Shown one piece after another: positions 10,068-27,559 of a DNA stretch of 32,134 nt; the first letter of the stretch is position 1; every line of letters begins with the position of its first letter. The notes beneath the pieces were generated by a model. That model was not told the DNA's origin, ran no database searches, and was given only the letters and a program-made list of their open reading frames with translations. Position numbers and translations under genes: made by a program. The stretch spans positions 19,473-51,606 of the forward strand of contig LBSQ01000001.1 of the NCBI GenBank assembly GCA_000992015.1, read 5' to 3'. This DNA comes from Parcubacteria group bacterium GW2011_GWA2_37_10 (GTDB taxonomy: Bacteria; Patescibacteriota; Minisyncoccia; Minisyncoccales; Staskawiczbacteraceae).

Positions 10068-10946
10068 TTACAACAACTTGATTTCCACTGCAGAAGCCTC
10101 TGGCCAGCCAGTTATATGAGATAGAGAGTCCTCGGTCTCATCTCGCCATTGCAGGACAGTCGGTAAACCACCACTCGCGTAAAGACTCCAAACATTCAAA
10201 GCCGTTCCTTCTTTGCGCGCGGGATTCATCGCCGCTGAAGTAAGCAAACCGTCACTGCCCAGTAGAATAAACTGCGGACGAGATAAACAGTTGATTTTCT
10301 TTACCATCCAGCACTCTTTCAGGGCCGGATCGCCGTTTAACAGGGGATATCCGCCCTTCCCGATGTTCTTGTTGGCGCAACGGATTTTCCTGGCTGAAAA
10401 GATCGGAAAGTAGATATCCCAAGCGCGGCCTTTGTCACCCTCTGTCTGCTTAAAACACTCCGCGATAGTAGCATTCGCTTCCTGCTCGTCTTTGAAAGCG
10501 GCCTGGTCAAACCCGGTAAGAAAAGATATACTATCGTTATACTTGACAAGGGCAAAACAATCCCCAGCGATAACGAAGGTAATTTTTGCCGGACCGAAAT
10601 GGCAAACAGCAAAGCTTGCCCCGCCAACATCTTGCCCCCTTGTAGGATCCTTTCCCTGAACATTGTGGGCCCGGCGAATTCGGCTGTTAGCATTAAGCGC
10701 AAATTCCTCAACATCAACCGGAGCGGACACAGACATCCCAGCCGAACAAAACTCTTTTGTCGCCACTTGTCCTCCGGTAAGACCTCCAGGATATATCAGC
10801 GGCGGATTGCTGGGGCTGTATCCAGCTGAAACACCATCAGATACCCCGAAAAGACCTGCCTGCGCGTTGACGAAAGCCCCATCTTCTTTAGGCGCTTTTT
10901 CGTCAGATGGCGCTCTGTAGAAAGACTTTGCTGAAAAAAATTTCAC
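10068..10946 (-). CDS. PP2C-like serine/threonine phosphatase domain protein, foreign composition
   Basis: The PP2C (PPM) family removes phosphate from Ser/Thr using two metal ions. The protein is 292 residues from a GTG at 10946, preceded by a clear AGAGG. Visible PP2C landmarks in order: ED (21-22), GVSDG (34-38), GGASFAVCHF (108-117), a buried strand ending IAGD (126-129), and LLGSDGL (D232). The final family Asp-Asn is replaced by Glu-Ala in PEASAV (282-287), so metal binding at that site may be altered. No membrane segment or signal peptide is seen. It is a single-gene unit with its own promoter and terminator. One sampled line (10621-10680) has 34 G+C in 60, far above the glycan genes. 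Family call from motifs only; substrate unknown. Confidence 0.7.
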   Translation of the reverse strand: MKFFSAKSFYRAPSDEKAPKEDGAFVNAQAGLFGVSDGVSAGYSPSNPPLIYPGGLTGGQVATKEFCSAGMSVSAPVDVEEFALNANSRIRRAHNVQGKDPTRGQDVGGASFAVCHFGPAKITFVIAGDCFALVKYNDSISFLTGFDQAAFKDEQEANATIAECFKQTEGDKGRAWDIYFPIFSARKIRCANKNIGKGGYPLLNGDPALKECWMVKKINCLSRPQFILLGSDGLLTSAAMNPARKEGTALNVWSLYASGGLPTVLQWRDETEDSLSHITGWPEASAVEIKLL

Positions 10947-22248: not shown

Positions 22249-23157
22249 TTATATCTGACTCTTAAAATAATCTTTAATTCCTTTTTTTATATCATATTCT
22301 GGAGAATATCTCAAAAATTCTCTTGTTTCTGTTAAATCTGCCTCTGTGTTTTCTTGATAGTGCTCATATGGGTTATCAATGTATTCTGGCTCAAGATTTA
22401 CGCCAAACGTTTTGTTAAGATTCTTTATTATTTCATTGAATGTTGTTGCCTTGCCTGCGCCAATATTAAAAACACCGCTTTTTTCGCAATCCATAGCCAA
22501 TAAATTTGCTTTAACAACATCTTTTACATAAACTTGGTCTCTTTTCTGCTCCCCGTATTTGAATATTCTCGGCCTCTTGCCTTCTTTCATCTGTAAGTAT
22601 AACTGCCAAATCATACTTGCCATTTTGCCTTTGTATTTTTCGCCTGGGCCATAAACATTAAAATAACGGAGCCCGACAATGTGAAGATTGTTAAAATTTT
22701 CACGGGCGATGTTGTCTGCCTTTAATTTAGAAAGCCCGTATACGTTGGCAGGAACTTCATTTTTGCCTACCAACATTGGAGGCGAAGAGTGGCCGTAAAC
22801 TGCTGCCGAGGAAGCATAAATCAGTTTGGCTCCGCATTTTATGGAAAAATCAAGAACATTTTTAAATCCATCTACGTTGTTGAGCATCATTTTTTTTTCG
22901 TCAAAAACCGTGGTATCTGTAATAGCGGCTTGGTGAAAGATAACATCCAGTTTATAAAAATGTTTGTTAAGATCTATTTCGGCAATGTTTCCGGAAATAA
23001 TTTCTCCTTTAAATCCGACTAAATTATCTGAATTCCCCGAAGAAAAATTATCAATAATATAATATTTGTTGTCGGGATATTTTTCCTGCAATGTTTTAGT
23101 TAGGTTTGATCCAATAAATCCAGCTCCCCCTGTAATTAAAATTTTTTTATTTTCCAT
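22249..23157 (-). CDS. hldD: ADP-glyceromanno-heptose 6-epimerase HldD
   Basis: Converts ADP-D-glycero-D-manno-heptose to the L-glycero form, the last step of ADP-heptose synthesis. The protein is 302 residues, close to the family's roughly 310. Distinctive HldD features: ITGGAGFIGSNL, FHQAAITDTTVFDEKKMMLNN, ASSAAVYGHSSPP, the catalytic YGLSK, and RYFNVYGPGEKYKGKMAS, which is the family's RYFNVYGPxExHKGxMAS with Tyr for His. It overlaps the HldE2-GmhB fusion gene by 11 bases, and that neighbour supports the pathway assignment. Confidence 0.92.
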   Translation of the reverse strand: MENKKILITGGAGFIGSNLTKTLQEKYPDNKYYIIDNFSSGNSDNLVGFKGEIISGNIAEIDLNKHFYKLDVIFHQAAITDTTVFDEKKMMLNNVDGFKNVLDFSIKCGAKLIYASSAAVYGHSSPPMLVGKNEVPANVYGLSKLKADNIARENFNNLHIVGLRYFNVYGPGEKYKGKMASMIWQLYLQMKEGKRPRIFKYGEQKRDQVYVKDVVKANLLAMDCEKSGVFNIGAGKATTFNEIIKNLNKTFGVNLEPEYIDNPYEHYQENTEADLTETREFLRYSPEYDIKKGIKDYFKSQI

Positions 23158-24187
23158 TGTTTAAAATAATATTTACGGCATCTAAAATATTTTTGACATG
23201 ATAATTCGGTTCTAATTTCAGATCAACAGGCATTTTTTTACCGATCTTTATGGTTTTTATGTTTGCCTCTCTGCCAGCAATAATATCTCTGAAATCGTCC
23301 CCCACTATCCAACTTTTGCTTAAATTCAAACCAAAGTCCTCGCCAGCCTTTAAAAGCATGCCTGGCTTTGGCTTTCTGCAAGGACAATTGTCATTTGGCC
23401 CGTGCGGACAGTAATAAATTTTATCAATTCTCACCTCGTTTTTTCTGAGTTCTTTTAGCATCCAATCGTGCAATTTTTTTAAATCTTTTTCATTATAATA
23501 TCCTCTGGCTATTCCAGACTGATTAGTTGCAATAATGATTTTGTGATCAGTTTTTGATAATTTTTTCAAAGCGGAAATCGCGCCGAGAACAAATTTAAAA
23601 TCATCTATTTTGTGAATATATTCGGGTTCGTTTATATTTATAGTCCCGTCGCGGTCTAAAAAAACCGCTTTCACTTCGGGTTTAAAATGAATATTATTAG
23701 TTTTTTGTCCCGCTTGGCGGGATTCCGCTACGCGGGACATCAACCCGCTGGTTGAAAAACCCTGTTGCCATTTTAGAATATGAATTTTTCCCCCATTTTC
23801 TTCAACAACACCCCTTTCAACGCAATTTTTACCCCAGTCAGAACCGTTACAATGAATATCCGGCTTTATTTTTTTTAAAATTTCTTTTGGATTGATTTCA
23901 TCAAAATGGACAACATAATCAACATGTCCAATAGCAGACAGAACTTCCGCCCGCTCTTTTTCCGAATTTACGGGATGATTGGGCCCTTTATATTTTTGAA
24001 CAGAGTTATCGCTGTTTAAAAGAATGGCTAAAATATCCCCCTGCGCTTTTGCCTCTTCCAAAGATTTAATGTGTCCCAAATGCAGAATGTCAAAACTGCC
24101 GTTATAAGTAACGACTTTTTTCCCCTGCTCTTTAAGGTTTTTTACGATCTCAACAATTTCTCCTTGTCTTTTAATCTTCGGATTCAT
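23147..24187 (-). CDS. Fusion: heptose-1-phosphate adenylyltransferase (HldE C-domain) plus heptose-bisphosphate phosphatase GmhB
   Basis: Two consecutive functions of the ADP-heptose route in one chain, 346 residues from the ATG at 24187 (the track start at 24214 is possible too). Numbering from that ATG, residues about 24-150 form a nucleotidyltransferase with GSFDILHLGH, LLNSDNSVQKYKGPNHPVN and GFSTSGLM. Residues about 172-346 form a HAD phosphatase with DRDGT, IIIATNQSGIARG, the zinc motif CPHG...CPCRKPKPGM, and IVGDDFRDI. GmhB removes the 7-phosphate before the first domain adds AMP. The linker carries SRVAESRQAGQK, encoded by a GC-rich palindrome. In Enterobacteria the adenylyltransferase is instead fused to the kinase; here the kinase is a separate gene at 25147. 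Confidence 0.93.
   Translation of the reverse strand: MNPKIKRQGEIVEIVKNLKEQGKKVVTYNGSFDILHLGHIKSLEEAKAQGDILAILLNSDNSVQKYKGPNHPVNSEKERAEVLSAIGHVDYVVHFDEINPKEILKKIKPDIHCNGSDWGKNCVERGVVEENGGKIHILKWQQGFSTSGLMSRVAESRQAGQKTNNIHFKPEVKAVFLDRDGTININEPEYIHKIDDFKFVLGAISALKKLSKTDHKIIIATNQSGIARGYYNEKDLKKLHDWMLKELRKNEVRIDKIYYCPHGPNDNCPCRKPKPGMLLKAGEDFGLNLSKSWIVGDDFRDIIAGREANIKTIKIGKKMPVDLKLEPNYHVKNILDAVNIILNNGK
23707..23738. repeat. GC-rich palindrome at the HldE2-GmhB domain junction
   Basis: Outer arms GTCCCGC (23707-23713) and GCGGGAC (23732-23738), with a second overlapping CCCGC/GGCGGG pairing inside. It is read in frame as MSRVAESRQAGQ in the linker between the two enzyme domains. G+C is much higher than around it. 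Confidence 0.75.
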
Positions 24188-24221
24188 TTTTTTTTTATTA
24201 GACAAATATAACATAATTGTA

Positions 24222-24237
24222 AATATTTTTAAATATT
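24222..24237. promoter_or_regulatory. AT palindrome touching the Nudix promoter
   Basis: AATATTT-TT-AAATATT, a perfect 7-base inverted repeat that ends inside the TTGACA of the Nudix-like gene and sits 35 bases before the HldE2-GmhB ATG. It is a possible operator between divergent genes. AT-rich DNA forms such palindromes by chance, so confidence is low. Confidence 0.3.
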
Positions 24238-24264
24238 GACATTATCATGAATAAATGATAGCAT
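24236..24264 (+). promoter_or_regulatory. Promoter of the Nudix-like gene (TTGACA-N17-TAGCAT)
   Basis: Perfect TTGACA (24236-24241), 17-base spacer, TAGCAT (24259-24264), then about 85 bases of leader containing a small hairpin (CGCAG-GCGT-CTGCG, 24301-24314). The boxes and spacing match those of the PP2C-like gene. Confidence 0.65.
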
Positions 24265-24344
24265 GAGTGCATCTTGAACATTGACAAAATAGTTGTTTTT
24301 CGCAGGCGTCTGCGAACAGCTACTATTGGATTTGTTCGGTTTTG

Positions 24345-24351
24345 GGAGAGG
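24345..24351 (+). promoter_or_regulatory. Strong Shine-Dalgarno that fixes the Nudix start
   Basis: GGAGAGG lies 5 bases before the ATG at 24357. The track's TTG start at 24342 is upstream of this site and is therefore unlikely. Neighbouring glycan genes have only A-rich leaders. Confidence 0.75.
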
Positions 24352-24356
24352 GTGTT

Positions 24357-25070
24357 ATGAACGAACGTAAAAAAATAGTTCTCGCGAAACATCTGATTGG
24401 CAAGGGCGGTTGGGTAAGCCTCTATGGTTTCAACACCGAGGGCGGCCGTCGAGAAATATTGGCGCGAAATAACGGCCACTTTAAAGCGGCCAAGTGCCTG
24501 GTTCTGTACGTTGACAAAAATGTGTGGGAAAAATTGCGTGCTGAGAACAGCAGTGGTCTTCCGACCTTTTTGCGCCGTCTCAAGGCGATTGGATTATCCA
24601 ATTTTCAGGTTTTCCTTTTGGCGGTAGACAGGCCCCTCACGTATTCGGATTCACTGGATCTTGCCGGGCTGACTGCAAACCACCAACTGGAATTATCCGG
24701 AGGCGTAGCTGACGCAGTTGATAAGGACGCTATCGCCACCGGTGTACGGGAAACCTACGAGGAATATGGCTGCACGGCCGCAGATGTCGCGATGACAGCT
24801 CCTTTGGTAGCCGAAGGAGCTCACGTGGCATATGATGCCGGTGGCCAGGTAGAGATCTACTCAATTTCCGTTGCCGTTGTCACACAAAAACCAAGTCCTC
24901 CACGACGCGAAGGCACCATACCGGACAAATGCGTTTTAGTGCCCCTTTTGGAAGCTGAAGAGTTCCTGATGGAACAGGGCAGGCAGGGCATCCTTCTAGA
25001 AGGGCTTGCCTTGACTGCGCTATCTCATCTCGGCCTTGCATTGCATGGCGGATGGAATAGCTTGAGATAA
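24357..25070 (+). CDS. Nudix-like hydrolase, foreign composition, opposite strand
   Basis: Nudix enzymes hydrolyse nucleoside diphosphates linked to another group. The protein is 237 residues from the ATG at 24357. The second half of the Nudix box is intact, RETYEEYG (131-138), preceded by SGGVADAVDKDAIATGV. In the first half the spacing is one residue long, and the expected Glu is Lys or Asp, so the box is imperfect. A family-typical APLVAEGAHVAYDAGGQVEIYSISVAVV follows. It is the only confident plus-strand gene and lies between the heptose kinase and the HldE2-GmhB genes. One sampled line (24661-24720) has 34 G+C in 60, against 17 in 60 at 23521-23580. It has its own promoter, Shine-Dalgarno and terminator. 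Activity on ADP-sugars is conceivable given the location, but not shown. Confidence 0.75.
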   Translation: MNERKKIVLAKHLIGKGGWVSLYGFNTEGGRREILARNNGHFKAAKCLVLYVDKNVWEKLRAENSSGLPTFLRRLKAIGLSNFQVFLLAVDRPLTYSDSLDLAGLTANHQLELSGGVADAVDKDAIATGVRETYEEYGCTAADVAMTAPLVAEGAHVAYDAGGQVEIYSISVAVVTQKPSPPRREGTIPDKCVLVPLLEAEEFLMEQGRQGILLEGLALTALSHLGLALHGGWNSLR

Positions 25071-25104
25071 TGGAATATCCTTCTTGGCGCTAAACTTCAC
25101 AACG

Positions 25105-25137
25105 CCCGTCGGTTGACAAACTGACGGGCTTTTTTTA
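25105..25137 (+). terminator. Rho-independent terminator of the Nudix-like gene
   Basis: GCCCGTCGGTT / CTGACGGGC form a GC-rich stem around a short loop containing GACAAA, followed by seven T. It lies 35 bases past the Nudix stop and just before the end of the convergent kinase gene. Confidence 0.92.
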
Positions 25138-25146
25138 TTGATAATT

Positions 25147-26103
25147 TTAGCTTTCCAAATATTGTTTTAACTCTTCCGGCCCGACTGTTGCTGTACCCAA
25201 TTTGCCAACTACAATCCCAGCCGCGTGGTTTGCAATTATAGTCGCCTGTTCAAGGTTGGCGCCGGCGGCCAAAGCCAGAGTGGCAACAGCCACTACCGTA
25301 TCTCCTGCTCCGCTTACGTCAAACACTTCTCTTGCCACTGCTGGAAAATGTTTGACATTATTGTTTTCAAAAAGAGTTGCTCCCTTAGCTCCCCGAGTGA
25401 GCAAAACACTGCAATTTAATTGCTTCTGAATTATTTTTCCAGCTACCTCAAAATCGCTGACTCCGGATATTTCCAAAGATTCTTTCTGATTAGGGCTCAA
25501 AAGAGTAATGTTTTTGAAGAATGGCGCGTGTTTTGGTTTTACATCGCCAATAATCGGTTTTTTATATTTTACAGCCAAATTGACTATATTTTCGGCTAAA
25601 TTTTTAGTAATCAATCCTTTTGCATAATCTGAAACCACAATGCCGTCCCATTCTTTAATATGCAAAACGATAAATTCCAATAATTTTCTTTCGACATTAT
25701 CGTCAACATATTGAACATCTTCCTTATCTACTCTCACAACCTGCTGGCTTCTGGCAACAACTCTTATTTTCTGAATAGTCGGCTTTTTAGAATGTACCGT
25801 AACTCCTCCTATTTCAATCCCTCTTTTTTTGAACTCTGAAAGCAATATTTTTCCCGCTAAATCTTTTCCTACTAAGCCAACAATGAATGCTTTGCCGCCA
25901 AGAGCGGCAATATTTGCGGCAGTGTTTCCCGCTCCGCCCGGCACAAAACTCTCTCTGGCAACCACAACTACTGGAATTGGGGCTTCAGGCGAGATTCTGT
26001 CGGCATCTCCCCACATAAAGTGATCCAACATTAAATCGCCTATCACTCCGATTTTTTTTCCTTTAAAATTTTCCGTTATTTTAATTAGTTTATTTTTTTC
26101 CAT
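25147..26103 (-). CDS. D-glycero-D-manno-heptose-7-phosphate kinase (HldE N-domain, stand-alone)
   Basis: A PfkB/ribokinase-family enzyme that phosphorylates heptose-7-phosphate at C1. The protein is 318 residues, the length of the isolated kinase domain. Seen: IGVIGDLMLDHFMWGDADRISPEAPIPVV (HldE-specific opening), GGAGNTAANIAALGG, LLTRGAKGATLF, and the catalytic SGAGDTVVAVATLALAAG near the C-terminus. There is no attached nucleotidyltransferase; that activity is in the GmhB fusion about 0.9 kb downstream, beyond the Nudix-like gene. The start ATG at 26103 is preceded by a copy of the dispersed GTAGCGATAT motif. Confidence 0.93.
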   Translation of the reverse strand: MEKNKLIKITENFKGKKIGVIGDLMLDHFMWGDADRISPEAPIPVVVVARESFVPGGAGNTAANIAALGGKAFIVGLVGKDLAGKILLSEFKKRGIEIGGVTVHSKKPTIQKIRVVARSQQVVRVDKEDVQYVDDNVERKLLEFIVLHIKEWDGIVVSDYAKGLITKNLAENIVNLAVKYKKPIIGDVKPKHAPFFKNITLLSPNQKESLEISGVSDFEVAGKIIQKQLNCSVLLTRGAKGATLFENNNVKHFPAVAREVFDVSGAGDTVVAVATLALAAGANLEQATIIANHAAGIVVGKLGTATVGPEELKQYLES

Positions 26104-26500: not shown

Positions 26501-27559
26501 TCAACTTTTAGAATTTATAATCTCCTGAACTTTATTAAAAACTATTTCAGGAGTTATTTTTTTTAAACACTCGTGTTTTTTGTTTGTATCGTAATTTTTA
26601 GTAAAAATATCATGATAGCGGTATCTGCATTTTTCTGAAATTATATGCACTCTTGGACCGACGGGTCCGGTTCTTTCCGGAATAGTTGGGCCAAAAATAG
26701 CGATTAAATTAGCGCTAGTTGTTGCGGCAATATGGCTAAGACCGGTGTCTGAAGAAACAAATATTCTACATTGGTCAGTCAAGGCGGCTACCTGGCATAG
26801 TGTTTTCCCAATTACTGATATGGCTTTTTCTTCCAGCTCATTTTGCATTTTCAGACAAAGGTCTTTTTCTCCTAAAGACCCAAAAAGAAGAATAATGGCA
26901 TCGGGGCAGCCGTCTAAAATTTTCTTGCCCAGTTTAATAAAATTTTCTTTAGGCCATAATTTAAATTGCTGAGCTGTGCCCGACCCTATGGAAAAACCTA
27001 TTAAAATTTTATTTTCTAAACTATTTTTTTGAATAAATTCTTCGGCAAATTTTTTATCATCGGCTCCCATCTCAAAAAATGGTAATGGAGCGGGACTTTC
27101 TATCTTTATATCTAAAGCTTTCAATAAATTCAGATTGGTTTCTATTTTATGCTTGTCAACGTCAAGTTTTACTTGATTGGTATAAAATGTCAGTTTAGCT
27201 TTCCTGTATTCTCCCGCCCTGGTTTTAGCTCCAGTCAGAAAGGCGAATAAACTTCCCATCAGTGGATTTACACCGCTGGCGACAAAAACCAAATCATATT
27301 TTTCTTTCCTAAATTTGTGAATAAGTTTAATTTTGCTCAAAAAATTATTCTTTTGAAAATCAAAAAAGAAAATTTTATTGACAAACAAAGAATCTTGAAA
27401 AATTCCTGTCCTGCCCGTAGTGTAGCTGACAAAAATATCTATTATTGAAATTGAATCGGGAAAATTGTTTTTCAAAATCTGCAGGGCCGGCGAAAACATT
27501 ATCAAGTCCCCAACTCCTCCTGGATTTATTATTAAAATTTTGTGAGGGGGTTTTGACAT
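26501..27559 (-). CDS. Glycosyltransferase family 9 (heptosyltransferase-like)
   Basis: GT9 enzymes transfer heptose from ADP-heptose. The protein is 352 residues, normal. Seen: ILIINPGGVGDLIMFSPALQIL at the N-terminus (acceptor-side loop), the inter-domain FSIGSGTAQQFKLWPKENFIKLGKKI, and the donor site VSSDTGLSHIAATTSANLIAIFGPTIPERTGP with the conserved D-T-G-x-x-H. Genes for ADP-heptose synthesis lie directly downstream, so the donor assignment is well supported. The acceptor is unknown; no lipid A genes are in the window. Confidence 0.92.
   Translation of the reverse strand: MSKPPHKILIINPGGVGDLIMFSPALQILKNNFPDSISIIDIFVSYTTGRTGIFQDSLFVNKIFFFDFQKNNFLSKIKLIHKFRKEKYDLVFVASGVNPLMGSLFAFLTGAKTRAGEYRKAKLTFYTNQVKLDVDKHKIETNLNLLKALDIKIESPAPLPFFEMGADDKKFAEEFIQKNSLENKILIGFSIGSGTAQQFKLWPKENFIKLGKKILDGCPDAIILLFGSLGEKDLCLKMQNELEEKAISVIGKTLCQVAALTDQCRIFVSSDTGLSHIAATTSANLIAIFGPTIPERTGPVGPRVHIISEKCRYRYHDIFTKNYDTNKKHECLKKITPEIVFNKVQEIINSKS

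Follow-up and report, generated by a model that had tools for sequence, protein, structure and literature searches.

A self-contained antisense unit encoding a predicted Nudix protein splits an ADP-heptose operon in a Parcubacteria group bacterium

Phage genes known as morons are recognized in part by their odd base composition. The term is also applied on the basis of a gene-specific promoter and terminator (PMC3918226). Here we describe a comparable unit in a 32,134-nucleotide stretch of DNA from Parcubacteria group bacterium GW2011_GWA2_37_10 (contig LBSQ01000001.1, positions 19,473 to 51,606), hereafter called the window. The 959-bp unit (24188 to 25146, plus strand) is composed of a promoter, a leader hairpin, a Shine-Dalgarno (SD) sequence, a gene for a 237-amino-acid protein that appears to belong to the Nudix family, and a terminator. 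Like a phage moron, it consists of one gene that has a promoter and terminator to itself, its base composition is unlike that of the host, and it splits genes that are adjacent in relatives. Unlike a moron, it resides in a chromosomal sugar operon flanked by glycan genes rather than in a prophage, and no homologues were found in plasmids, phages, or viral contigs. The interrupted operon carries genes for the synthesis of ADP-heptose, which is both a glycan precursor and a bacterial signal sensed by animal innate immunity.

The GDP-mannose hydrolases NudD and Gmm, the latter located in the colanic-acid cluster, are Nudix enzymes that act on nucleotide-sugar precursors. A further precedent is SP_1669, a Nudix UDP-X diphosphatase encoded near cell-wall genes, which hydrolyzes precursors of the Mur pathway (PMC3655063). 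These enzymes process other sugars and differ in sequence, whereas the window gene forms an autonomous antisense unit. Our literature search turned up no Nudix enzyme for ADP-heptose.

Comparison with relatives provides good support for a model in which the unit is an insertion that splits a once-continuous operon, as the first-pass annotation of this DNA had proposed. Among 57 relatives searched for hldE1, three from the same family carry a close hldE1 (G005, G004, and G014; 65, 63, and 56% identity), and in each of them hldE1 and hldE2-gmhB overlap by 8 to 11 bp, with nothing between them. Compared with these junctions, the unit extends from the hldE1 stop to the ancestral hldE2 start, which is probably the ATG at 24187. 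Direct repeats were sought at the edges of the insert as signs of a target-site duplication, and none was convincing. An integron cassette was also weighed for its single-gene form and set aside, given that the 3' inverted repeat reads as a plain terminator; no search for integrons or attC sites was made.

The expression signals listed by the first-pass annotation were all located within 24236 to 25138. The sigma-70-type promoter (TTGACA-17-TAGCAT, 24236 to 24264) matches the consensus at 10 of 12 positions and carries a TG before the -10 element. It is followed by the leader hairpin (24288 to 24327; -17.4 kcal/mol, z -4.5, with 1 of 200 shuffled sequences folding as well), by the SD-like sequence GGGAGAGGG (24344 to 24352), and by the gene itself, which begins with an ATG at 24357 and ends with a stop codon at 25070. 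The intrinsic terminator (25104 to 25137) is predicted to be still more stable, at -20.9 kcal/mol (z -6.4, 0 of 200 shuffled sequences as good). Folding of the complete 105-nucleotide leader is unexceptional (z -1.1). A scan of the whole window against Rfam produced no match, and PADLOC likewise produced none.

The gene is the only one on the plus strand amid minus-strand genes from 3242 to 31991. Its G+C content is 0.518, as opposed to 0.357±0.034 across 26 genes of the window (z 4.7), and it also stands apart in codon usage (log-likelihood z -4.6). Local counts reported previously, 34 of 60 nucleotides at 24661 to 24720 against 17 of 60 at 23521 to 23580, are exact. Base composition and codon usage suggest horizontal acquisition from another lineage. 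Rather than being universally present in relatives with matching codon usage, the gene has a single other detected carrier among searches that covered the family, order, class, and phylum: no other of the 247 order genomes searched has it, nor do the class and phylum samples (which overlap each other), save for one genome (G235) from another class of the phylum. An alignment scan of the contig collection likewise recovered only the contig of that genome, NZCO01000016.1, after a first scan had recovered none. The relatives of the host that were searched have small genomes, and the host is itself Patescibacteria-like in genome size and gene set.

The G235 homologue is 38–40% identical to the window protein over residues 17 to 236/237 (E 1.6e-35), and the match persists when the Nudix box is masked (E 1e-28). 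Identities of 0.51, 0.61, and 0.31 at the three codon positions indicate constraint at the protein level. This homologue is also encoded by an antisense unit with a promoter (TTGACA-17-TATACA, plus strand, 1058 to 1086, read by eye), an SD sequence, and a terminator. The unit sits between hldE2 and hldD in an operon with the order gmhA-hldE1-gmhB-hldE2-hldD. In four sister genomes (loci L042, L043, L045, and L057) this junction is closed or nearly so, with hldE2 and hldD overlapping by 4 bp in G089, G137, and G205 and lying 4 bp apart in G213. Thus, the two arrivals look separate. The HldE1 proteins that flank the two units are only 37% identical and the operon layouts differ, which argues against transfer of a whole operon block. 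Given the different junctions and differently built operons, either the two insertions arose separately or a single insertion was followed by movement of the gene. By eye, the upstream regions of both genes were also seen to have an 11-mer in common, TGACAAAATAG (window 24282 to 24292, L034 1068 to 1078).

Membership of the window protein in the Nudix family is well supported by sequence comparison. The protein alone scores 13.3 bits against the Pfam NUDIX model (PF00293; E 0.088), which is below the cutoff of 21.1, whereas the G235 homologue scores 30.7 bits (E 3.6e-7) and carries the canonical box GIANMGESLQGAAVREAVEEYG. Nudix boxes follow GX5EX7REUXEEXGU or an accepted variant of it, and the window protein has the variant GVADAVDKDAIATGVRETYEEYG (GX5DX8REX2EEXG, residues 116 to 138, 24702 to 24770), which is one residue longer and replaces the first Glu with Asp. 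The same pattern, GX5DX8REX2EEXGX, has been tabulated for the NUDT16 enzymes of human and frog (PMC5389931). Since this match is exact, the box that was originally described as intact only in its second half is better read as a known variant. A search of the Protein Data Bank (PDB) with the window protein reveals no significant similarity to NUDT16, however, and the box of the G235 homologue is canonical. The RE..EE.G residues are kept in both proteins.

In its mid-protein Nudix box after an N-terminal extension, the window protein resembles the ADP-sugar and ADP-ribose pyrophosphatases. The G235 homologue is weakly similar to NUDT5, NudE, and MutT, and its PDB matches to MutT and ADP-sugar pyrophosphatases are weak (E 0.006 and 0.3). 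Unlike these pyrophosphatases, the window family shows no significant match to a curated subfamily model; for the ADP-sugar pyrophosphatase subfamily, no NCBIfam model scored above its cutoff. The two proteins appear to represent a rare, uncharacterized Nudix subfamily in which an N-terminal extension of about 90 residues is conserved. Structure prediction, which had been proposed as a check of the active site, contributed nothing on either the active site or the fold: AlphaFold models built from the two-sequence alignment in both orders were unusable (predicted local distance difference test [pLDDT] scores of 37–38), and a Foldseek search with a low-confidence model gave no significant match.

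The reading that we favor, tentatively and with a little less than even confidence, is that an acquired one-gene unit in the junction between hldE1 and hldE2-gmhB encodes a Nudix enzyme acting on the ADP-sugar of the pathway. A self-contained unit would have entered this junction antisense to the operon, and its product would most likely split ADP-heptose into AMP and heptose 1-phosphate, thereby serving as a valve on the pool. Because the gene has its own promoter, the valve might be set independently of the operon. The downstream hld genes could start at a divergent promoter on the edge of the cassette, for which there is a weak candidate (TTTAAA-17-TATATT, 24205 to 24233, minus strand, 9 of 12 positions). 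The arrival of a very rare gene twice in one pathway favors a functional link, and the position in two operons suggests that action on the ADP-heptose pathway is plausible. For the same reason ADP-heptose is our best guess for the substrate. The location beside ADP-heptose genes, which the first-pass annotation had considered telling, therefore gains weight from the homologue in a different ADP-heptose junction, while the proposed cleavage of an ADP-sugar is still a prediction.

Several observations weigh against this reading. Beyond the subthreshold Pfam score and the unusable structural models, only two members of the subfamily are known, and no sequence feature fixes the substrate. No Nudix gene is seen at a dozen or more other hld loci in the phylum, and no further Nudix gene was found in the gaps of other hld operons (L042 to L044). 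Two operons from the class of G235 carry other material, namely a 192-amino-acid gene between gmhB and hldE2 (L043, 2044 to 2622) and, separating hldE2 from hldD, 0.7 kb of sequence in which no clear gene is recognized (L044, 757 to 1489). Thus, recurrence in hld operons could reflect a site that tolerates insertions. In addition, no match to gmhA was found at E 1e-5 in the host genome, which is 94% complete, despite the presence of hldE1, hldE2-gmhB, and hldD, and so the ADP-heptose pathway of the host may itself be incomplete. In the relative G014, gmhA adjoins hldE1.

A more ambitious version of the favored reading seems unlikely. In this version, ADP-heptose would be the dedicated substrate of a new Nudix subfamily, which would be carried by an autonomous antisense cassette that repeatedly enters hld junctions among Patescibacteria-like bacteria and controls the pool. 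If true, such a recurrent cassette would illustrate a way for very small genomes to acquire regulated genes one at a time within compact operons.

A more serious contender, if a somewhat doubtful one, is that the unit is neutral or generic cargo, one of many autonomous insertions in surface-glycan clusters, and that the enzyme performs general nucleotide house-cleaning unrelated to heptose. In a 272-kb sample of the host genome (the window plus loci L072 to L084, with crude calling of open reading frames), 13 interior genes have a G+C content of at least 0.45, and they are scattered through the sampled sequence. Both a promoter and a terminator accompany 7 of these 13 genes, as against 10 of the other 241 (Fisher 2e-6). 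Antisense orientation to both neighbors is likewise seen for 7 of the 13, compared with 14 of the 241 (1.2e-5). Two of the high-G+C calls lack a promoter and are likely to be spurious open reading frames. Given these enrichments, the Nudix insertion belongs to a broader class of moron-like genes, and so is less singular. Another G+C-rich (0.49) Nudix gene lies antisense in a glycan operon on contig C1 of the host genome (L073, 3266 to 3820; PF00293, 1.6e-6), and the other insertions in hld operons noted above also fit the generic cargo explanation. However, a rare subfamily has struck the operon of one pathway twice. With about 5 such junctions among about 900, we estimate the chance of this at about 0.6%, although it might reach a few percent should glycan clusters be insertion hotspots.

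The glycan cluster of the window contains a second G+C-rich (0.50) autonomous unit with a promoter, SD sequence, and terminator (10068 to 10946, minus strand). Its 292-amino-acid product resembles a PP2C phosphatase by eye and has no match in Pfam. Homologues are present in seven searched relatives (L086 to L092), mostly among sugar-cluster genes, and each exceeds its neighbors in G+C content. Thus, high G+C content alone is no proof of recent arrival.

It is improbable that the unit acts as a regulator, with antisense transcription and divergent promoters uncoupling or tuning downstream hld expression, and with the protein, which has an N-terminal extension, sensing a nucleotide sugar without hydrolyzing it. 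Candidate divergent promoters facing the downstream hld gene are present in both cassettes (window 24233 to 24205, L034 1073 to 1045), a possible operator palindrome (TATCAT-6-ATGATA, 24243 to 24260) occupies the spacer of the Nudix gene promoter, and the Nudix clan includes non-enzymatic regulators (PMC5389931). However, the promoter matches are weak, the palindrome has a chance expectation of about 2%, Pfam finds no DNA-binding domain in the window protein, and both proteins retain the RE..EE.G residues. A foreign fragment joined during assembly or binning is very improbable, because despite the single fragmented assembly (716 kb in 40 contigs) and the abrupt change in composition, the unit is part of a 70-kb contig, fits precisely between two flanking genes that are both complete, and has its promoter and terminator intact, and G235 is an independent case.

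The neighboring genes, all on the minus strand, agree with the earlier placement of the unit between a heptose kinase gene and hldE2-gmhB. The hldE1 gene for heptose-7-phosphate kinase (25147 to 26103) scores 349 bits against TIGR02198 (cutoff 345). In the hldE2-gmhB fusion (23147 to 24214), the gmhB part exceeds the cutoffs of both TIGR00213 and PRK08942, while the hldE2 domain scores 157 bits against TIGR02199, below the cutoff of 181.5. Downstream is hldD (22249 to 23157), encoding ADP-glyceromanno-heptose 6-epimerase (TIGR02197, 308 bits, cutoff 274.6). The cluster also includes a heptosyltransferase-like glycosyltransferase of family 9 (26501 to 27559; PF01075, 1.5e-31).
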